Shown: positions 3,691 through 52,397 of the stretch, one piece after another
Numbering within the stretch: the stretch's first letter is position 1
Layout of the letters: each line of letters starts with the position of its first letter
Assembly (NCBI RefSeq): GCF_009761675.1
Contig: NZ_QUZH01000015.1
Coordinates: forward strand, 124,001-188,000
Reading direction: 5' to 3'
Origin: Bhargavaea sp. CC-171006
Lineage (GTDB): Bacteria > Bacillota > Bacilli > Bacillales_A > Planococcaceae
Length of the DNA stretch: 64,000 nt
Notes under the pieces: generated by a model
Databases searched by the model: none
What the model was told of the DNA's origin: nothing
The model's input: only the letters and a program-made list of their open reading frames with translations
Made by a program: the position numbers and the translations under genes

Positions 3691-5269
3691 GCCAGATTCC
3701 CCCGTAGAAGTTCTCTTCGTAGATCTCCTTGCCGGTCTTCGTCTCCGTGCCGGCTCCCGGACTCGCCGGTCCGCATCCGTCGCATCCCGCGCCGCCCGTG
3801 CCCATCGCGCCAAGGCCCATCGTGTCGCCGCCGAAGCCTGCGGATCCCTGCATGTCGTACGTGTTCATCCGGTTCTCCTTGTGGGAGGTCGGGATGACGA
3901 ACCGGTCGTCATACTTCGCGATTGCGAGCAGTCGGTACATTTCCTCGGTCTGCAGGGCGGTCAGGCCGACCCGCTCAAGCCGGGATTCATCGAACTCTTT
4001 GCCCGACGACAGCGCGCGCATGTACTGGCGCATCATCGCCATGCGCTGGAGCGACCCCTTGACCGTCTCCGTATCGCCCGCCGTCAGCATGTTCGCGAGG
4101 TACTGGACCGGCGTGCGCATCTCCTCGATCGCCGGGAAGATCATGTCCGGGTTCTTGATCGAGTCCTTGCCCTCGAAGTAGTTCATGATCGGCGAAAGCG
4201 GCGGCACATACCAGACCATCGGGAGCGTCCGGTATTCCGGGTGGAGCGGGAATGCGAGCTGGTGCTCGATCGCGAGCTTGTAGACCGGCGAGTTCTGAGC
4301 GGCCTCGATCCAGTCCTCCGTAATGCCGTCGCGGCGCGCCTGCTCGATCACTTCGGGGTCGTTCGGGTCCATGAAAAGGTCGCACTGCGCGCGGTAAAGA
4401 TCCTTCTCGTCCGGCGTCGAGGCGGCTTCCAGCACCCGGTCCGCGTCATACAGCAGGACGCCGAGGTATCGGATCCGGCCGGTGCACGTTTCCGAGCAGA
4501 CCGTCGGCAGGCCTTCCTCAATCCGCGGGAAGCAGAACGTGCACTTTTCTGCCTTGTTCGTCTGCCAGTTAAAGTAGACCTTCTTGTAAGGGCACCCGGT
4601 CGTGCAGTACCGCCAGCTGCGGCACGCCTCCTGGTCGACCAGCACGATGCCGTCCTCGTCGCGCTTGTAGATCGCGCCCGCCGGGCAGGATGCCACACAG
4701 CTCGGGTTCAGGCAGTGCTCGCAGAGCCGCGGCAGGTAGATCATGAACGACTTCTCGAAGTTGAACTTGATCTCTTCCTCGATCTTCTGGATATTCGGGT
4801 CCAGCGGGCCGGTCACATCTGCGCCGGCCAGATCATCTTCCCAGTTGGAGCCCCACTCGAGGTCCATCTTCTCGCCCGTCACGGCCGAGTAGGCGCGGGC
4901 GACCGGCGGGTGCTCGCCTTCGCCCGCTGTGACGAGGTGGTCGTAGTTGTACGTCCATGGCTCGTAGAAGTCGCGCATCTCCGGCATGTCCGGGTTGTAG
5001 AAGATCTTCCCGAGTGCCACCTTGGACAGGCGGTTCCCCGACTTCAGCTCCAGGTTGCCGTTGCGGAGCTGCCAGCCGCCCTTGTACACTTCCTGGTCCT
5101 CCCATCGCTTCGGGTAGCCGATTCCCGGCTTCGTCTCCACGTTGTTGAACCACATGTACTCCGCGCCTTTCCGGTTCGTCCAGGTCGTTTTGCAAGTGAC
5201 GCTGCATGTGTGGCAGCCGATGCACTTGTCCAGGTTCATCACCATTGCAATCTGAGCTTTAATCTTCAA
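3683..5269 (-). CDS. narH: NarH, nitrate reductase beta subunit (iron-sulfur)
   Basis: This 528-residue protein is the electron-transfer subunit between NarI and NarG. Four ferredoxin-type cysteine groups are visible. The first is C16-x2-C19-x2-C22-x3-C26 (CIGCHTCSVTC); later groups include CEHCLNPSCVASCPAG, CRSWRYCTTGCPY (where Trp replaces one Cys, as expected for the [3Fe-4S] site), and CTFCFPRIEEG. It begins inside the end of narG (11-base overlap) and ends inside narJ. The tail carries a Gly-rich segment (about 485-515) with extra cysteines (GCDGCGPA) not found in E. coli NarH; its role is unknown. Confidence 0.96.
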   Translation of the reverse strand: MKIKAQIAMVMNLDKCIGCHTCSVTCKTTWTNRKGAEYMWFNNVETKPGIGYPKRWEDQEVYKGGWQLRNGNLELKSGNRLSKVALGKIFYNPDMPEMRDFYEPWTYNYDHLVTAGEGEHPPVARAYSAVTGEKMDLEWGSNWEDDLAGADVTGPLDPNIQKIEEEIKFNFEKSFMIYLPRLCEHCLNPSCVASCPAGAIYKRDEDGIVLVDQEACRSWRYCTTGCPYKKVYFNWQTNKAEKCTFCFPRIEEGLPTVCSETCTGRIRYLGVLLYDADRVLEAASTPDEKDLYRAQCDLFMDPNDPEVIEQARRDGITEDWIEAAQNSPVYKLAIEHQLAFPLHPEYRTLPMVWYVPPLSPIMNYFEGKDSIKNPDMIFPAIEEMRTPVQYLANMLTAGDTETVKGSLQRMAMMRQYMRALSSGKEFDESRLERVGLTALQTEEMYRLLAIAKYDDRFVIPTSHKENRMNTYDMQGSAGFGGDTMGLGAMGTGGAGCDGCGPASPGAGTETKTGKEIYEENFYGGIWRD

Positions 5270-8200
5270 GCCAGTTGACCTCCCTTTTCTTCCTGATCAT
5301 GGCATATTCGTCACGCTGGTTTCCGATCGGCCCGTAGTAGTTGAATCCGTAGCTGAGCTGGGCGTAGCCGCCGACCATCTGTGTCGGCTTCATATGGATG
5401 CGCGTCGGCGCGTTGTGGCTGCCGCCCCGCGTGTCCGTGATTTCCGACCCCGGCGTCTGGATATGCCGGTCCTGTGCGTGGTAGGCAAGCAGCGTGCCTC
5501 GCGGAATCCGGTGGCTCGTGACCGCCCGGCATGTGAGCGCGCCGTTCCGGTTGTACACTTCAATCCAGTCGTTGTCCGAGATCCCGTGCTCCGCCGCTTC
5601 CTCGTTGTTCATCCAGGCGACCGGTCCTCCGCGGAACAGCGTCAGCATGTGCAGGTTGTCCTGGTACATCGAGTGGAAGTTCCATTTACCGTGCGGCGTC
5701 AGGTAACGCAGGACCAGCTTGTCTTTTCCGCCACGCACTTCCCTGTCTCGCGGGCCGAACACCATCGGCGGCAGCGTCGGCTTGTAGACCGGGAGCGCTT
5801 CCCCGTACTGAAGGAAGATCTCGTGGTCAATGTAGAAGTGCTGGCGGCCGGTAAGGGTCCGGAACGGCACGAGCCGCTCGATGTTCGTCGTGAACGGCGA
5901 GTACCTGCGGCCGGCTTTGTTGGAACCGCTGAACACCGGCGTCGGGATGACTTCCCGCGGCTGGGCGGTGATGCTCTGGAATGTGATCCGCTCCGCCGCG
6001 CGCTCCGCCGAGATGTCGGCAAGTTCCACGCCGGAAAGCTTTTCCGCTTCCTTGTAGGCCTTCTGGGAAAGGCGTCCGTTCGTCGCGGACGACAGATGAA
6101 GCACCGCGTCAGCCGCCTGGCGCGCCGTCTCGACCTTCGGCAGGCCGCTCTTGATCGACTCGTCGTGGTAGACGCCGTTGATGCGCTTCAGCTCCTCGTA
6201 TTCTTCGGCTGCCGAGAAGCTGACGCCGTGCGCGCCGGTCTTGCCGACCTGGAGATTCGGGCCGAGCGTGATGTATTTGTCGTAGATCTTCGTATAGTCG
6301 CGCTCGATGATACTCAGGTTCGGCATTGTCTTGCCCACGACCGCCTCCACTTCCCCTTTTGCCCAGTCGCGGACAAATCCGAGCGGCTGGGAGATCTCGC
6401 TTTCCGAGTCATGGTTCAGCGGCGTGGTGACGAGGTCCTTGTAGACGCCGGGCAGATGGGTCTGCGCCATCCCTGAGAATACTTGCGCCAGCCTTCGGAA
6501 AATGTCCCAGTCGGTGCGGGATTCCCAGAGCGGATTGACCGCCGGGTTGAACGGGTGGACGAACGGGTGCATGTCGGTCGATGACAGGTCGGTCTTTTCG
6601 TACCATGTCGCGGCCGGCAGCACGATGTCCGAATGGAGCGGTGTCGTCGTCATCCGGAAGTCGAGCGAGACGAGAAGATCGAGCTTGCCTTCCACTTCGT
6701 CGCGCCAGACGATCTCCTCCGGCTTCACTTCCTCGTTCGGCCGCGCCATGAGCGCATCGGCCGTGCCGAGCAGGTGCTTCATGAAGTATTCCTGGCCCTT
6801 GGCGGAGCTCGAGATCAGGTTCGAGCGCCAGACGAACATTGTCCGAGGGAAGTTTTCCGGCGCCGCCGGGTCCTCGATTGCGAACTTGACTTCGCGGCTC
6901 TTGATCTGATCGGCCGCGCGCCCGATGATTTCCTCGTTTGTCGTCTTGCCTTCACGGGCGGCCTCTTCCGCGAACAGCAGGCTGTTCTTATTGAACTGCG
7001 GATAGCTCGGCAGCCATCCGAGCCGCGCGGCCATGACGTTGTAGTCGGCCGGGTGGCGGTAATCCAGTTTGTCTGCTAGCGGAGACTTCAGCGATTCGGT
7101 GTCCCCTTCCTCGTAACGCCACTGTTCGGTGCCGAAGTAGAAGAACGAAGTCCCGTTCTGGAGGCGCGCCGGTCCCTGCCAGTCTTTCGCAAAGGCGAGC
7201 GTTGACCAGCCCTCGATCGGGCGGCACTTTTCCTGGCCGACATAATGTGCCCAGCCGCCGCCGTTGACGCCCTGGGAAGCGGTCAGAATGACGAGGTTCA
7301 GGATCGAACGGTAGATCGTGTCGGAGTTGAACCAGTGGTTGATGCCTGCGCCCATGATGATCATGGAGCGGCCGCCCGTATCCAGCGCGTTCTGTGCAAA
7401 CTCGCGGGCGATCTGGGTCACCACAGATGCCTTGACGCCGGTAATCCGCTCCTGCCAGGCCGGCGTGTAGTGCGATTCCGCATCGTCGTAGCTTTTCGCG
7501 TCATACGGATTGTCCGTCCTGCGCACGCCGTACTGGCTCATCATCAGGTCGAAGACAGTCGCCGCGTATTGCTCCGTGCCGTCCGCCAGGCGGACTTTCC
7601 GCGCCGGGATGACGCGGCGGAACGTGCCGTCGCCGGAGTCATCGAAGAACGGGAATTCAATCTCCTTCCATTCTTCGCCGTGTCCCTCGACGGTGAGTGC
7701 CGGCTCGATGCGCGTCCCGTCCTCTTTGTCGAGGATCAGGTTCCATTTGCCGTCCTTTTCCCAGCGCTGGCCCATCGTCCCGTTCGGCACGACGAACTCG
7801 TCCGCCGCCTCATCGAAGATTACCGGCTTCCATTCGGCATTTTTCGTATCGCTGCCGAAGTCACTCGCGCGCAGGAAGCGCCCTGCCTTTAGAGAGTCGT
7901 TATGCGGGTCGAGCAAAATCATGAACGGCATGTCCGTATACTGCTTCGCGTAGTCGATGAACATCTTTTCTTTTCGCTCCTGGTAAAACTCACTCAGGAT
8001 GACGTGGGTCATCGCCTGCGCGAGCGCGGCATCGGTGCCCGGGTGCGGCGCGAGCCAGTTGTCCGCGAACTTCACATTTGCGGCAAGGTCAGGCGCGATC
8101 GAGACGACCTTCGTCCCCTTGTAGCGCACTTCGGTCATGAAGTGCGCATCCGGCGTCCGCGTTAGCGGCACATTCGAGCCCCACATCATGAGGTAGCCCG

Positions 8201-8939
8201 CGTTGTACCAATCCGATGATTCCGGTACGTCCGTCTGCTCGCCCCAGATCTGCGGCGAGGATGGCGGAAGGTCGGCGTACCAGTCGTAGAACGACAGCAT
8301 CTCCCCGCCGAGAAGCGAGATGAACCGTGCCCCTGACGCGTAGGAGATCATCGACATGGCCGGAATCGGCGTGAAACCGGCAATCCGGTCCGGGCCATAT
8401 TTGCGGATCGTGTAGATCAGCTGCGCGGAAATCAGCTGTAGCGCGTCATCCCAGGCGACGCGGATCAGGCCGCCCTTGCCCCGGACCCGCTTGTAGCTCA
8501 TCGCCTTTTCCGGATTCTCGACGATGCTCGCCCATGCATTGATCGGATGGCCGTCGTTTTCCGCGAGCGCCTCGCGCCACAGCTTCCACAGCCTTCCGCG
8601 CATGTACGGGTACTTCACCCGATGCGGGCTGTACTCATACCACGAGAACGTGGCGCCCCGCGGACAGCCCCTCGGCTCGAACTCCGGCATGTCCGGACCG
8701 CAGGACGGATAGTCGATCTGCTGGTTTTCCCAGGTGATGACGCCGTTTTTGACGAACACCTTCCAGCTGCAGGAACCGGTGCAGTTCACTCCGTGCGTCG
8801 TCCTGACGACCTTGTCATGGGACCAGCGCTGGCGGTACATGTTCTCCCAGTCCCGGCTTTTCGCCTCCAGGATCGACCAGTTCCCCGAATAGCTCTCCAC
8901 GGGCTTGAAGAAGTTCAGGCCATATCTTCTCTTTTTCAT
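5259..8939 (-). CDS. narG: NarG, nitrate reductase alpha subunit (molybdenum catalytic subunit)
   Basis: This is the 1226-residue catalytic subunit that reduces nitrate to nitrite at a bis-MGD molybdenum centre. The N terminus has H49-x3-C53-x3-C57-x34-C92, the His/Cys ligand set of the FS0 [4Fe-4S] cluster. There is no twin-arginine signal, so the site faces the cytoplasm as in NarGHI and unlike Nap. The segment YNAGYLMMWGSNV (about 243-255) includes the expected Mo-pocket region. The ATG at 8939 follows AAGGAGTG. It is the first gene of the operon and is preceded by the regulatory region at 8990-9070. Length and motifs match Bacillus and Staphylococcus NarG. Confidence 0.97.
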   Translation of the reverse strand: MKKRRYGLNFFKPVESYSGNWSILEAKSRDWENMYRQRWSHDKVVRTTHGVNCTGSCSWKVFVKNGVITWENQQIDYPSCGPDMPEFEPRGCPRGATFSWYEYSPHRVKYPYMRGRLWKLWREALAENDGHPINAWASIVENPEKAMSYKRVRGKGGLIRVAWDDALQLISAQLIYTIRKYGPDRIAGFTPIPAMSMISYASGARFISLLGGEMLSFYDWYADLPPSSPQIWGEQTDVPESSDWYNAGYLMMWGSNVPLTRTPDAHFMTEVRYKGTKVVSIAPDLAANVKFADNWLAPHPGTDAALAQAMTHVILSEFYQERKEKMFIDYAKQYTDMPFMILLDPHNDSLKAGRFLRASDFGSDTKNAEWKPVIFDEAADEFVVPNGTMGQRWEKDGKWNLILDKEDGTRIEPALTVEGHGEEWKEIEFPFFDDSGDGTFRRVIPARKVRLADGTEQYAATVFDLMMSQYGVRRTDNPYDAKSYDDAESHYTPAWQERITGVKASVVTQIAREFAQNALDTGGRSMIIMGAGINHWFNSDTIYRSILNLVILTASQGVNGGGWAHYVGQEKCRPIEGWSTLAFAKDWQGPARLQNGTSFFYFGTEQWRYEEGDTESLKSPLADKLDYRHPADYNVMAARLGWLPSYPQFNKNSLLFAEEAAREGKTTNEEIIGRAADQIKSREVKFAIEDPAAPENFPRTMFVWRSNLISSSAKGQEYFMKHLLGTADALMARPNEEVKPEEIVWRDEVEGKLDLLVSLDFRMTTTPLHSDIVLPAATWYEKTDLSSTDMHPFVHPFNPAVNPLWESRTDWDIFRRLAQVFSGMAQTHLPGVYKDLVTTPLNHDSESEISQPLGFVRDWAKGEVEAVVGKTMPNLSIIERDYTKIYDKYITLGPNLQVGKTGAHGVSFSAAEEYEELKRINGVYHDESIKSGLPKVETARQAADAVLHLSSATNGRLSQKAYKEAEKLSGVELADISAERAAERITFQSITAQPREVIPTPVFSGSNKAGRRYSPFTTNIERLVPFRTLTGRQHFYIDHEIFLQYGEALPVYKPTLPPMVFGPRDREVRGGKDKLVLRYLTPHGKWNFHSMYQDNLHMLTLFRGGPVAWMNNEEAAEHGISDNDWIEVYNRNGALTCRAVTSHRIPRGTLLAYHAQDRHIQTPGSEITDTRGGSHNAPTRIHMKPTQMVGGYAQLSYGFNYYGPIGNQRDEYAMIRKKREVNWLED

Positions 8940-9005
8940 TCATCCGACACTCCTTTTTGGCAGGACAATTGGACAGAATGCTAGTAGTACTATTCTGATA
9001 GTTTC

Positions 9006-9068
9006 ATTATGGTGGTTTCCGCCAACACTTCCCATTAGGGAAAAACCTATCAGACGGCGGGAATTCCC
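9006..9068 (-). promoter_or_regulatory. nar operon control region with two NreC-like palindromes
   Basis: On the minus strand a CATAAT (9006-9011) is a possible -10, with no recognisable -35, as expected of an activator-dependent promoter. The 14-mer TAGGGAAAAACCTA (9036-9049) matches nine of ten fixed positions of TAGGG-N4-CCCTA, the NreC target I recall from Staphylococcus carnosus, and would be centred about 43 bases before the start site. It overlaps a second dyad, TTCCC-ATTA-GGGAA (9029-9042). A further GGGAATTCCC palindrome is at 9059-9068. The promoter positions are inference. Confidence 0.6.
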
Positions 9069-9140
9069 TTTATTGGGGGGAGCAGCGTGGACTATAAACG
9101 GGGGCAGTACGTCAGGGTGGCTGTCGGGGACCGGTCGTGC

Positions 9141-9320
9141 TTATTTCAAGTTTGGGCGCAGTATTGCAACTTCGAAGCTCTTATTGCAACTTGCGTTTCC
9201 TTATTTCAACCTGTGGATCCTTATTTCAACTTCGGAGCATCAATTTCAATTCGCGGAACCTGATTGCAATTCTCGGTCCTTTATTGCAAATTCCGGTTCC
9301 TTACCGCAAATCGGGAAAGA
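9141..9320. repeat. 20-bp-period tandem array, type A (nine units)
   Basis: Nine head-to-tail units start at 9141, 9161, 9181, 9201, 9221, 9241, 9261, 9281 and 9301, exactly 20 bases apart. Each unit has a conserved first half, approximately TTATT(T/G)CAAC, and a variable second half of about eight to ten bases. There is no insertion or deletion across 180 bases although the variable halves have diverged. No plausible protein is encoded. The array runs without a break into type B at 9321. Confidence 0.92.
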
Positions 9321-9480
9321 GGAATTCGGACTTACAGCTGGCGGTCCGGACTTGGACGCCGTAATTCGGACTTAGACACCGGATTCCGGACTTACAGATT
9401 TGATTTCGGACTTACGCATGAGGTTTCGGACTTAAAACCTTGATTTCGGACTTACGCTCCCCATTCCGGACTTACACAGG
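9321..9480. repeat. 20-bp-period tandem array, type B (eight units)
   Basis: Eight units start at 9321, 9341, 9361, 9381, 9401, 9421, 9441 and 9461, in the same 20-base register as type A. The conserved core is ATT(T/C)CGGACTTA(C), followed by about seven variable bases. Aligned in register, types A and B share ATT(T/G/C)C at positions 3-7, so they look like diverged versions of one repeat. The array lies between the modC terminator and the nar promoter. The reverse complement of the 36-kb core (TTCGTACTAT) is a close relative. Confidence 0.92.
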
Positions 9481-9525
9481 GTTGCTCCCCCATTTCCCTC
9501 GCCGCCCATGGTCCACTAAAGGCAA

Positions 9526-9554
9526 TAAAAAAGCCTCCCTTATCAAAGGGAAGC
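9526..9554 (-). terminator. Intrinsic terminator of modABC
   Basis: On the minus strand GCTTCCCTT and AAGGGAGGC form a stem with a four-base loop followed by TTTTTT. The stem starts inside the last codons of modC and its stop codon lies at the stem-loop junction. Confidence 0.85.
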
Positions 9555-10202
9555 TTCAGATATCAGAAGTTCGGCCATGCGGCCTTTCTCGATCCGGACG
9601 ATGCGGTCCGCGGTGCGTCGGGCTTCGTCCATGCTGTGGGTGACCATGAGGACGGGGATCTGCCAGTCCCGATGGATGCGCATCAGCTCGTTCCGGCAGC
9701 GCAGCCGGGTTTCGTCGTCGAGCGCGGAGAACGGCTCGTCCAGCAACAGCAGTTCCGGTTTCATCGCGAGCGCCCGCGCCAGTGCCGTGCGTTGCTTTTC
9801 GCCGCCGGAGATTTCGTGCGGATACTTGTCCATGAGCGGCCGGATGCCGAGCAGCTCGGTAAGTTCCTTCACATGGAGCGGCTCGGGCTTTCCTGGAAGC
9901 CCGAACAGGATGTTCTCACGCACCGTCATATGGGGGAAAAGCGCATAGTCCTGGAACAGGTAGCCGACACGACGCTCCTGGATCCGGAGCGGTTTGCGGC
10001 CATCTTCCGCAAACACCCGCCCGCCAAGCTCGATCCGGCCAGAATCCGGCTTGACCGTTCCCGCCAGACAGTTCAGGAAGGTCGTCTTCCCCGAGCCTGA
10101 CGGGCCGACGATTGCGACGATTTCCCGATCCATCCTAAATTCGGCCTGCAGATCAAACTGCGGCAGCCGTTTGGTGAATTCCGCTTTCAGCACCACGCTC
10201 AC
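9543..10202 (-). CDS. modC: ModC-like molybdate ABC transporter ATPase (short form)
   Basis: This 219-residue ATPase energises ModB for molybdate uptake. It has Walker A GPSGSGKT, Q-loop (LFQDYALFPH), signature ISGGEKQR, Walker B LLLLDEPFSALDD and the switch histidine in MVTHSMDEA. E. coli ModC is about 350 residues; the C-terminal molybdate-binding (mobe/TOBE) domain is absent here, so this copy should lack trans-inhibition by bound molybdate. It overlaps modB by four bases and ends in an intrinsic terminator. A sulfate or tungstate importer is the main alternative, but the neighbouring nar operon favours molybdate. Confidence 0.85.
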   Translation of the reverse strand: MSVVLKAEFTKRLPQFDLQAEFRMDREIVAIVGPSGSGKTTFLNCLAGTVKPDSGRIELGGRVFAEDGRKPLRIQERRVGYLFQDYALFPHMTVRENILFGLPGKPEPLHVKELTELLGIRPLMDKYPHEISGGEKQRTALARALAMKPELLLLDEPFSALDDETRLRCRNELMRIHRDWQIPVLMVTHSMDEARRTADRIVRIEKGRMAELLISEASL

Positions 10203-25301: not shown

Positions 25302-25731
25302 CATCCTGCCCGATCTTTGCGATCAGCTGTTCCATCATTGCATTCAGCCGCTCGATGTCCGGCGAAGGTTGCCGGTCCAGTTTCTGTGCCATTTCATCGA
25401 TCTGTTTTTGCATCAGTTCCATCTGCTGCTGACTTTGCTGTTCCTGCTGGTCATTCAGCTGTTTCTTCAGATCATCCAGCTGTTGCTGGAATTGCGCATG
25501 CAACTGGTCCTCCTGCTCTTGCTCGATGCGGGCTTCCTCTATGGCAATGGCGGCGCCGATCACTCCAAGCGTATCACCGATCGCTGCAAGGATTCCGCCA
25601 AACAGTCCGATTGCAGCTCCACGGCTGACCGGTGAGCCGCCCGAATTATTGCCGCAATTACCCGCCTGGTATTGTTGGCTTGGCGGATATTGAAGGCCTC
25701 CGCCATTCTGATAGGGAGGTCCCTGCCACAT
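25291..25731 (-). CDS. Small Gln-rich coiled-coil protein, unknown function
   Basis: This protein of about 146 residues has three parts: a Pro/Gly/Gln/Tyr-rich N terminus (MWQGPPYQNGGG onward), a short hydrophobic segment (GAAIGLFGGILAAIGDTLGVIGAAIAI) that may insert in or bind a membrane, and a long Gln/Glu-rich coiled coil. I choose ATG 25731 because GGGGGAG lies about seven bases upstream; ATG 25737 is an alternative. I do not recognise the family. It resembles small spore- or surface-associated Bacillales proteins only in composition. Confidence 0.6.
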   Translation of the reverse strand: MWQGPPYQNGGGLQYPPSQQYQAGNCGNNSGGSPVSRGAAIGLFGGILAAIGDTLGVIGAAIAIEEARIEQEQEDQLHAQFQQQLDDLKKQLNDQQEQQSQQQMELMQKQIDEMAQKLDRQPSPDIERLNAMMEQLIAKIGQDESS

Positions 25732-35316: not shown

Positions 35317-35512
35317 ATAGAGTGCCGTAATCAAATCTAATACGGTGATCCGAAAATAGAGAGGTAAGTACGCCCCAGCCGATAGTACGAAAATGCAACA
35401 CATACTACGCATCCCGTCTCTATCCCGAAAAACCTCATCCGTCAGATTTCCACAAACTGTGGCGCCTAGTCCATTATCCCGTTCTGCCGGCAGATTCCCG
35501 ACAGAATCTCCA
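35317..35512. repeat. Degenerate repeat array joined to a remnant of the APH gene 3' end
   Basis: From about 35317 to 35440 there are five degenerate units of the array found at 36041-36180 (cores near 35317, 35338, 35364, 35382 and 35402, then CTATCCCGAA at 35420). The next 70 bases resemble the coding end of the APH-like gene at 36177-36245: read on the minus strand both give GGAATC-GCAGAAC-GGAT, but here with stop codons in frame. It is therefore a diverged copy of 36061-36245 in the same orientation. Confidence 0.65.
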
Positions 35513-36040: not shown

Positions 36041-36180
36041 ATAGTACAAATTCGCAGCCGATAGTACGAAATCCGAATCTATAGTGCGATAAGGGAAAAT
36101 TAAGTACGAAACCGTGCCTGGTAGTACGAAAATGAAGTGCATACTACGATACTCATCCCTATACTACGAAACCCCATCAC
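36041..36180. repeat. 20-bp-period tandem array, type C (seven units)
   Basis: Units begin at 36041, 36061, 36081, 36101, 36121, 36141 and 36161, exactly 20 bases apart. The core is AT(A)GTACGAA or ATACTACGAA, followed by about ten variable bases. The reverse complement of the core, TTCGTACTAT, resembles the type B core TTCGGACTTA at 9321-9480. The last unit provides the TAG stop codon of the APH-like gene (36164-36166). Confidence 0.9.
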
Positions 36181-51395: not shown

Positions 51396-52397
51396 TCAGT
51401 TTTTGAATTCTTCAAGCTTGGCAATCTGTTCGTCGGTATCTTCCTGTGGGAGGCTGACATAGCCTACAGCTTCAGCCATCTCACCTGCATTGTTAAGCGC
51501 GAATTCAAAGAAGTCGTAAGTTGCTGCGTCGTTCTGGAGCGACTCGTTGCTGACGTAAGTGTAGAGCGGACGGGACAGCGGCGAATATTCACCGGCTTCG
51601 ATCGTATCATGTGTCGGCTCAACACCGTCGATTGCGACAGCTGTGATGGAGTCCTGGTTGGCTACGTAGTACGAGAAGCCGAAGAAGCCGATGGCGTTCT
51701 TGTCACCTTGTACGCCTTGTACGAGGACGTTGTCGTCTTCAGAGAGTGTTGCGTTCTGAACCATGTCTTCTTCTTCAAGGATGACTTCGTTAAAGTAGTC
51801 ATATGTGCCGGAGTCTGTGCCCGGAGAGTAGAAGACAATTTCTTCTTCAGGCCATTCCGGATTGATATCGGACCATTTCTTGGTTGTGCCGTCTTCGACC
51901 CAGATCTTCTTCAGGTCTTCGACTGTCAGCTCTGTTGCCCAGTCGTTTTCCGGGTTAACAACTACTGTCAGGCCATCGTAAGCCAGAAGGAACTCGGTGT
52001 AGTCGACGCCAGCTTCTTCAAGCTTCTGCTTTTCTTCGTCTTTGATCTCACGGGATGCGTTCGAGAAGTCAGTCTCGCCTGCGATGAATTTCTCGAATCC
52101 GCCGCCTGTTCCGGATACGCCGACCGTTACCTGGACGTCAGTGCCTGTTGCTGCATATTCTTCGACGAGGGCTTCCATGACCGGCGCGACTGTACTCGAG
52201 CCATCGCCGGAAACTTGGCCTTCAACTGCTGCTTCAGAAGACTTATCTGCAGATTCGCTTGCCGTGTCGCTTTCAGCTGCCTGTTCTTCAGTTGCTTCGT
52301 CTGTTGCTGCATCTTCTTCTGTGTCGCTTCCGCATGCGCCAAGCAGCAGAGCCGATGAGACGACAGTGAGTCCGAGATAGTGTTTCCAGCTTTTCAT
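51396..52397 (-). CDS. pstS: PstS, phosphate-binding lipoprotein
   Basis: This 333-residue binding protein has a lipobox LLGAC (Cys22), a long acidic Glu/Ala/Ser/Asp linker (about 24-60), and then the PstS fold: SGDGSSTVAPVMEAL and GVSGTGGGFEKF for phosphate contact, and SPGTDSGTYDYF with the Ser/Asp/Arg set. It captures phosphate outside the cell and hands it to PstCA. It is the first gene behind a PhoP box. Confidence 0.96.
   Translation of the reverse strand: MKSWKHYLGLTVVSSALLLGACGSDTEEDAATDEATEEQAAESDTASESADKSSEAAVEGQVSGDGSSTVAPVMEALVEEYAATGTDVQVTVGVSGTGGGFEKFIAGETDFSNASREIKDEEKQKLEEAGVDYTEFLLAYDGLTVVVNPENDWATELTVEDLKKIWVEDGTTKKWSDINPEWPEEEIVFYSPGTDSGTYDYFNEVILEEEDMVQNATLSEDDNVLVQGVQGDKNAIGFFGFSYYVANQDSITAVAIDGVEPTHDTIEAGEYSPLSRPLYTYVSNESLQNDAATYDFFEFALNNAGEMAEAVGYVSLPQEDTDEQIAKLEEFKN

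Follow-up and report, generated by a model that had tools for sequence, protein, structure and literature searches.

What is the 20-bp repeat that lies between a modC-like gene and narG in Bhargavaea sp. CC-171006, and what would hold it in so strict a register? The site is part of the window, i.e., the whole stretch of 64,000 nucleotides that was analyzed, and comprises the following features.

5259 to 8939, minus strand: narG, nitrate reductase alpha chain (PF00384, PF01568, PF14710), start codon 201 bp from the array
9141 to 9309, plus strand: type A array, nine 20-bp units with core TTATTKCAA, based on sequence, autocorrelation, and own-genome search
9326 to 9474, minus strand: type B array, eight 20-bp units with core TAAGTCCGA on the minus strand, equal to TCGGACTTA on the plus strand
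9530 to 9557, minus strand: intrinsic terminator of the modC-like gene, its T-run ending 47 bp from the array
9543 to 10202, minus strand: ABC ATPase gene (PF00005), modC by context only, 3' end towards the array

The strict 20-bp register of nine type A and eight type B units (window positions 9141 to 9474), first proposed in a sequence-only reading of this DNA, was confirmed. In the autocorrelation of positions 9131 to 9485, identity reached 0.567 at lag 20, with harmonics of 0.543 (lag 40) and 0.542 (lag 60), and was only 0.14 to 0.36 for all other lags between 5 and 63. The type A cores begin at 9141+20n (n = 0 to 8; the ninth core, TTACCGCAA, is degenerate), and type B cores start at 9326+20n (n = 0 to 7), as TCGGACTTA or the variants CCGGACTTA and CCGGACTTG. 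The register had been described as unbroken over 340 bases. This holds within each block, neither of which contains an indel, but not across the two, as the B core starts are offset by 5 bp from the A register. No Rfam family scored above its gathering threshold in window positions 8900 to 9700, and the two sub-threshold matches both lay over the modC terminator.

Types A and B had also been thought to share a motif on one strand, which was not supported; they are better described as one family on opposite strands, with the two blocks mutually inverted. A single motif, W-W-R-N-(T/G)-N-C-R-A, fits all core types (A, TTATTKCAA; D, ATGYGGCAA; B, TAAGTCCGA; C, ATAGTACGA) once B and C are read on the other strand, and an ungapped alignment of 46 four-unit segments included every type. 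Two things led to the minus orientation of the window's type B block: this match to type A, and an orthologous site with B and A-like cores on one strand, where two other Bhargavaea genomes (G003 and G005) have B-type arrays and a third (G004) has a TAATTGCAA array. Judging from the fit, type B would thus be the reversed motif. The fuller Bhargavaea core reads CC-WWRN(T/G)NCRA-N-T, and core length is 9 to 13 bp.

The repeat is dispersed over the genome that carries it (G000; 3,266,877 bases, or 3.27 Mb, in 32 contigs). Two-unit patterns of type A gave 88 pairs versus 12 control matches, those of type B gave 15 forward and 15 reverse pairs, and those of type C gave 8 pairs, with 0 control matches for both B and C. 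Arrays were present in 18 of 20 stretches examined, with only two to three weak units in L267 and none in L268; a profile search added a further array at C19:340083-340238, and array sites number at least 19. The unit caller reported 19 arrays in 17 stretches, missing the type B block of the window and the array of L260.

For the genus, 80 stretches (943,607 bases) were picked around pattern hits in eight Bhargavaea genomes. A lag-20 finder reported 68 arrays in this sample. At lags 14 to 19 and 22 to 38 it gave 0 to 10 each, with 33 at lag 21 and a few at other multiples of three, counts which we read as codon periodicity; at lags 39, 40, 41, and 42 it gave 12, 65, 3, and 24 arrays, respectively. 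The unit caller reported 74 arrays with 858 units, one array being counted twice (L288 and L289). Of 784 unit steps, 751 were 20 bp, 25 were 19 bp, and 8 were 21 bp, in a caller that permits steps of 19 to 21 bp only; on reversed sequence it gave 14 chains versus 91 at its threshold, and those 14 arise because reversal keeps the 20-bp period. When spacing was left free, neighbouring full cores lay 20 bp apart in 379 cases, 19 bp in 7, 21 bp in 3, 18 bp in 1, and 22 to 25 bp in none, with 53 further cases at 40 bp, 15 at 60 bp, and a few at other distances, e.g., 7, 13, and 33 bp. Together with the autocorrelation of the window, these unconstrained distances bear out the earlier proposal that spacing is constrained.

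Type A pairs were enriched in all eight Bhargavaea genomes (19 to 139 matches; controls, 0 to 1), type B pairs were present in six of the eight, and the profile search gave 30 to 49 matches per genome in all eight. Outside the genus, type A pairs were mostly close to controls, with a few counts above them (e.g., 15 versus 3 in G016), and the profile search gave a single weak match among 143 other genomes of the family (G146, genus g4; E = 1.4e-4). In wider genome contigs, the two-unit type A pattern occurred in at least 117 stretches; among the matches listed, nearly all were single and from unrelated taxa, and the named Bhargavaea records with exact matches were B. cecembensis and B. beijingensis. 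Viral contigs gave 33 isolated matches to this pattern, one per contig. By blastn, two arrays had no match in plasmids, and the window array had none in phages. Draft contigs terminate in or at arrays in G001 (C10, C33, C4, and C35) and G006 (C1, C8, and C41; matches at contig positions 1 to 50), and short-read assemblies therefore probably underestimate array number and length.

The sequence-only reading had proposed a search of related Planococcaceae for 20-bp arrays, and these were found in three genera besides Bhargavaea. An unbiased lag-20 scan of 40 stretches (742,433 bases, 16 genera) detected three arrays, all in one genome (G024, genus g18), plus one microsatellite, with 0 to 2 hits at each of nine control lags. 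Such random sampling of other genera is a weak negative, since 20 Bhargavaea grid stretches (400 kb), scanned in this way, yielded 0 arrays where about two to three were expected. The G024 arrays have the core TATTTGCGA in the same layout as in Bhargavaea. With one mismatch allowed, the two-unit TATTTGCGA pattern matched 51 of 200 genomes, most of them one to three times; five g18 genomes had 211 (G024), 163, 37, 18, and 3 (G101) matches, one g7 genome had 7, and within g13 there were 103 in G137, 6 in another genome, and 0 to 1 in most others, i.e., a burst in one g13 lineage. Controls in the enriched g18, g13, and g7 genomes gave 0 to 1 match per strand. In 22 stretches of these genera, 341 units were called at spacings of 20 bp (271), 21 bp (43), and 19 bp (3), a set that includes one four-unit call at 21 bp (L379:6702) which may be coding. 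With spacing free, neighbouring full cores lay 20 bp apart in 237 cases, 21 bp in 34, and 19 bp in 1. The array is therefore not peculiar to the nar operon but belongs to a genome-wide family present in at least four genera.

Within the unit, one half is kept and the other drifts. Core and spacer identities of neighbouring units were 0.816 and 0.553 in A/D arrays and 0.750 and 0.334 in B/C arrays, for units whose caller selects for the core. In a motif-free test of 58 arrays, in which one half of the unit pairs served to pick the phase and the other to score it, identity was 0.780 inside versus 0.532 outside the chosen 10 bases and was higher inside in 109 of 116 halves; with randomly rotated phases, the values were 0.643 inside and 0.669 outside. 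Orthologous units (48 array pairs, 272 matched units, 7 of 10 spacer letters needed for matching) show position-specific constraint: differences amount to 7 to 9% at CC and T10, positions not used by the caller, 2 to 10% at T1, C6, R7, and A8, which it uses, and 16 to 32% at the remaining positions. Pooled differences were about equal (core, 430/2448; spacer, 527/2720), with the spacer figure lowered by the 7-of-10 matching rule. For the window B block and its counterpart in G003, core and spacer differences were 3/72 and 3/80.

In A/D arrays, the spacers tend to alternate, which amounts to a 40-bp dimer. Spacer identity at lags of one to six units was 0.553, 0.637, 0.542, 0.616, 0.533, and 0.604, and in 38 of 49 arrays the lag-2 value was above the average of its two neighbours, lags 1 and 3 (Wilcoxon P = 1.2e-5). 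The corresponding count for B/C arrays was 7 of 13 (P = 0.27). Core position 5 (T or G) alternates as well (0.62 versus 0.79), the dimeric register thus residing mainly in spacer positions and in one core position. The alternation recurs in other genera, where spacer identity in 19 arrays was 0.461, 0.702, 0.482, and 0.650 at lags 1 to 4 and where one array each of G065 and G092 follows a strict 20/21-bp alternation, i.e., a 41-bp dimer. Higher-order repeats of 40 and 60 bp are present inside arrays.

The best reading of the arrays is a DNA-binding array or a transcription boundary. Specifically, we give a probability of about 0.45 to the arrays being head-to-tail sites for a sequence-specific DNA-binding protein, with a putative boundary past terminators. 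The conserved half-unit, the drifting spacers, the near-absolute two-turn spacing, and the dimers argue for DNA recognized by a protein. Each recognition site would be the 9- to 13-bp core (CC-WWRN(T/G)NCRA-N-T, or TATTTGCGA in the three other genera), and since the sites recur at intervals of about two helical turns, in many cases as a 40- to 41-bp dimer, bound molecules could sit close to one side of the helix and cooperate. One protein family would co-evolve with the core.

Possible, and ranking close behind the binding-site reading, is a selfish minisatellite, in which the core promotes slippage or unequal recombination, and so its own duplication in tandem, and units without a core are no longer copied, so that conservation would arise without benefit to the cell; the arrays would persist in 3' intergenic space as promoters and genes cannot tolerate them. 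Such a process would agree with the 40- and 60-bp higher-order repeats, with lineage-specific amplification within a single genus (211 matches in G024 versus 3 in G101), and with the similar core and spacer substitution rates in the pooled counts. Against it stand the position-specific constraint in orthologous units, which extends to positions outside the caller's use, and the near absence of off-register spacing despite diverged spacers.

The binding-site reading is further informed by where the arrays lie. Their earlier assignment to gene 3' ends gains support from the comparisons with terminator hairpins and random placement. In the own genome, seven sites are convergent, ten tandem, and none divergent, each classified site having one or more Pfam-supported flanking genes and two sites being unclassified (L266 and L267). 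An automatic ORF caller placed 72 merged Bhargavaea arrays in 34 tandem, 20 convergent, and 7 divergent gaps, with 11 at stretch edges; other gaps of at least 120 bp comprised 133 tandem, 49 convergent, and 66 divergent ones (Fisher P = 0.005 for convergent versus divergent, orthologues being counted repeatedly). The same caller classed 23 arrays of other genera as 10 convergent, 10 tandem, and 3 divergent. Antisense ORFs are a source of false calls here, as shown by L286, L287, and L334, all orthologues of tandem sites; we therefore rely on the smaller, Pfam-supported own-genome set. There, a terminator-like hairpin lies between the stop codon and the array at 18 of 23 gene ends facing an array, compared with 9 of 23 in the antisense control, and in 14 of the 23 cases no more than 50 bp separate the end of its T-run from the array. 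A terminator directed at the array was found within 90 bp in 39/67 Bhargavaea arrays, 13/20 in the own genome, and 13/23 in other genera, and one directed away in 13/67, 4/20, and 7/23, respectively; 8 of 75 Bhargavaea arrays too near a stretch end were left out of the count. Random placement gave 48/486 towards and 41/486 away. The arrays thus lie past terminators, a location common to Bhargavaea and other genera that speaks against the selfish alternative, although avoidance of promoters could explain a 3'-end location as well. Because an intrinsic terminator precedes the arrays and the next gene follows them, a boundary role would be the likeliest one for bound protein: it might stop RNA polymerase read-through, ease conflicts between polymerase and replication fork, or anchor the nucleoid.

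Strand gives a mixed picture. Relative to the nearest terminator, the core strand is unbiased (same to opposite, 6:7 in the own genome, 14:21 in Bhargavaea, and 5:6 in other genera), and a fixed polarity along the chromosome was rejected on the evidence of own-genome contigs C8 and C11, where arrays run both ways. Tandem sites differ in that most arrays have their core strand antisense to the genes (antisense to sense, 26:6 in Bhargavaea, where orthologues entered the count more than once; 6:1 in the own genome; 7:3 in other genera). This excess makes strand neutrality a weaker argument and would agree with either a polar barrier or an antisense RNA. Consequently, we weighted an RNA-level explanation slightly up and the selfish one slightly down. 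An element acting as RNA, be it a leader, an attenuator, a 3'-end element, or a regulatory antisense transcript, is nevertheless unlikely. The antisense excess (26:6; other genera, 7:3) would suit it, as would the closeness of some B-type arrays to a called start codon (L262, L263, and L294; about 30 bp or less). Some arrays also fold clearly better than shuffled sequence: among 67 arrays, z was below -2 for 24% in the forward and 18% in the reverse direction, and for 16% against a column-preserving shuffle. The mean z was just -1.2 (forward) and -0.8 (reverse), however, and -0.5 against the column-preserving shuffle; the strand relative to the nearest terminator is not fixed across sites, and the window array has no Rfam family above the gathering score. 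Hairpins between neighbouring spacers were rejected for Bhargavaea, where complementarity at odd lags did not exceed that at even lags (A/D, 23/48, P = 0.92; B/C, 7/13, P = 0.50). Two G024 arrays had more spacer complementarity at odd lags (about 3.6 versus 2.6 pairs), and hairpins may form there.

No common neighbour gene or shared DNA-binding partner was found among 40 proteins scanned at 19 own-genome sites; eight of these proteins matched no family. The scanned neighbours are ordinary and include one LacI-type regulator and one topoisomerase. In the same scan, no Cas family, no par-like gene, and no Nop-domain protein was detected. A coding repeat was rejected, since the period is 20 bp and a change in unit number shifts the frame (e.g., by four units, 80 bp, between the nar sites of G006 and G007); the non-coding nature put forward earlier is thereby borne out. 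So is the dissimilarity to CRISPR: its repeats are about 25 to 36 nt, with spacers of similar size (PMC12045711), and a 9- to 13-bp core with a 20-bp period falls short of this; the scanned neighbours include no Cas family.

The same paper (PMC12045711) describes TIGR arrays as two alternating 8- to 12-nt repeats with 9-nt spacers and a Tas gene with a Nop domain. The present arrays resemble this layout in their short repeats and spacers of about 10 nt each and in a dimeric register of about 40 nt, and a guide-RNA array of this kind was therefore considered. We regard it as very unlikely: compared with that layout, the arrays have essentially one repeat with alternating spacers, the alternation residing mainly in the spacers, and occupy many loci per genome. 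The Nop domain (PF01798) had no match in the own genome, while the control gave matches in 4 of 14 genomes, and the Tas gene was likewise not found among the scanned neighbours.

A chromosomal centromere-like or partition site, wrapped by a ribbon-helix-helix or similar protein as ParR wraps parC, is quite unlikely. ParR of plasmid pSK41 binds 20-bp direct repeats (PMC9426499), and the arrays share with parC of pSK41-type plasmids the tandem direct repeats of about 20 bp. They are, however, dispersed over the chromosome at no fewer than 19 sites on many contigs, next to ordinary genes, rather than confined to a dedicated site with linked parM/parR genes, and the 40 neighbours scanned include no par-like gene.

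STAR elements of Staphylococcus (PMC3532100) have a 14-bp GC-rich core, T(G/A/T)TGTTG(G/T)GGCCC(C/A), whose copies are separated by 40 bp or more, and species do not share their locations. The present arrays resemble these elements as direct repeats interspersed between genes, in the pairing of a conserved core with variable spacers, and in the local gain and loss of units; they differ in their core, the 20-bp period, the near-absolute spacing, and sites matched between species. When the consensus and spacing of the 74 arrays were compared by eye with the published STAR consensus, both differed, and a STAR identity was rejected.

A functional analogy exists in TTF-I Sal-box arrays, protein-bound repeats just past the end of rRNA transcription that act as terminator and fork barrier; like the present arrays they follow a transcription end, but they are eukaryotic and confined to rDNA. 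REP/BIME elements, whose palindromic units alternate in orientation, prefer gene ends. They are dispersed extragenic repeats as the arrays are (PMC2817692 and PMC3116915), and they were rejected as an explanation since the units here run head to tail in one orientation per array, are not palindromic, and fold weakly on average. As the sequence-only reading had supposed, no earlier description of such repeats was found in the open-licence PMC literature.

Sites matched across species show how the arrays change. By their flanks, 15 of 20 own-genome stretches could be matched to stretches of other species, and 13 of these 15 sites had an array called in at least two species, whereas L295 and L338 have no more than about two to three units; because stretches were picked around arrays, this estimate of site conservation is biased. 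In the modC-narG gap, A plus B units occur in G000 and G003, whereas G006, G007, and G001 have 11 to 15 called D units, with the terminal units, first and last, each resembling its counterpart among the A units of G000. The gap of G004 has no array, and no full-length modC match was found in G002 and G005. This other core type in three Bhargavaea genomes and the absence from a fourth likewise contradict specificity for the nar site. At the truA-CbiQ site, the cores are C/B in one genome, B in three, A-like in a fifth, and B plus E (TTACTCCAA) in a sixth, always at 20 bp. Hence, the core type of a whole array can change at a single site. The arrays at this site lie between CbiQ-family (EcfT-like) and truA-like genes (L262, L294, L311, and L328, around positions 5960 to 6250), genes that share an operon in Bacillus subtilis. 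There are about two units at L291, L295, and L304. Such differences by whole units or dimers, as at these loci and between the nar sites of G006 and G007, are what a selfish minisatellite would leave, whereas the matching of sites across species speaks against it.

Several observations count against the binding-site reading: a shared partner protein was not found among the 40 neighbours, pooled core and spacer differences are about alike, arrays are absent (G004) or limited to about two units (L291, L295, and L304) at matched sites, orientation is mixed, and 3 of 23 arrays of other genera were called divergent. A bolder form of this reading, which we consider doubtful, is that a fast-evolving protein forms phased filaments on the 20-bp (40/41-bp dimer) arrays past terminators, which would serve as genome-wide insulators or polymerase/fork barriers, with the protein and all arrays changing their recognition sequence together, comparable to centromere or REPIN-RAYT co-evolution, as a previously undescribed system of the Planococcaceae. 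Given how compact bacterial genomes are, a non-coding repeat that keeps a near-fixed phase of two turns at many gene ends, and does so in several genera, implies that some mechanism maintains it. If a protein binds the arrays, they would represent a new class of chromosome boundary or organizing system, and the species series would be a natural experiment in how a protein and its sites co-evolve; if none does, they would be an unusually clean bacterial case of core-driven minisatellite evolution.

A third core, ATAGTACGAA, had earlier been attributed to the nar array. It belongs instead to a second array in the window and its fragment.

36041 to 36169, plus strand: second array, type C core ATAGTACGA, seven called units in 20-bp register
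35382 to 35411, plus strand: type C fragment of two units that are similar to those of the second array

The fragment and the second array lie about 650 bp apart on either side of a small gene, which suggests local seeding of array pieces. The stop codon of an aminoglycoside/hydroxyurea-type kinase gene (PF04655; 36164 to 37162, minus strand) abuts the second array. Elsewhere in the window, lag identity was raised at 25423 to 25603 (lag 21) and 52160 to 52331 (lag 12); as both lags are multiples of three, these are probably coding repeats.
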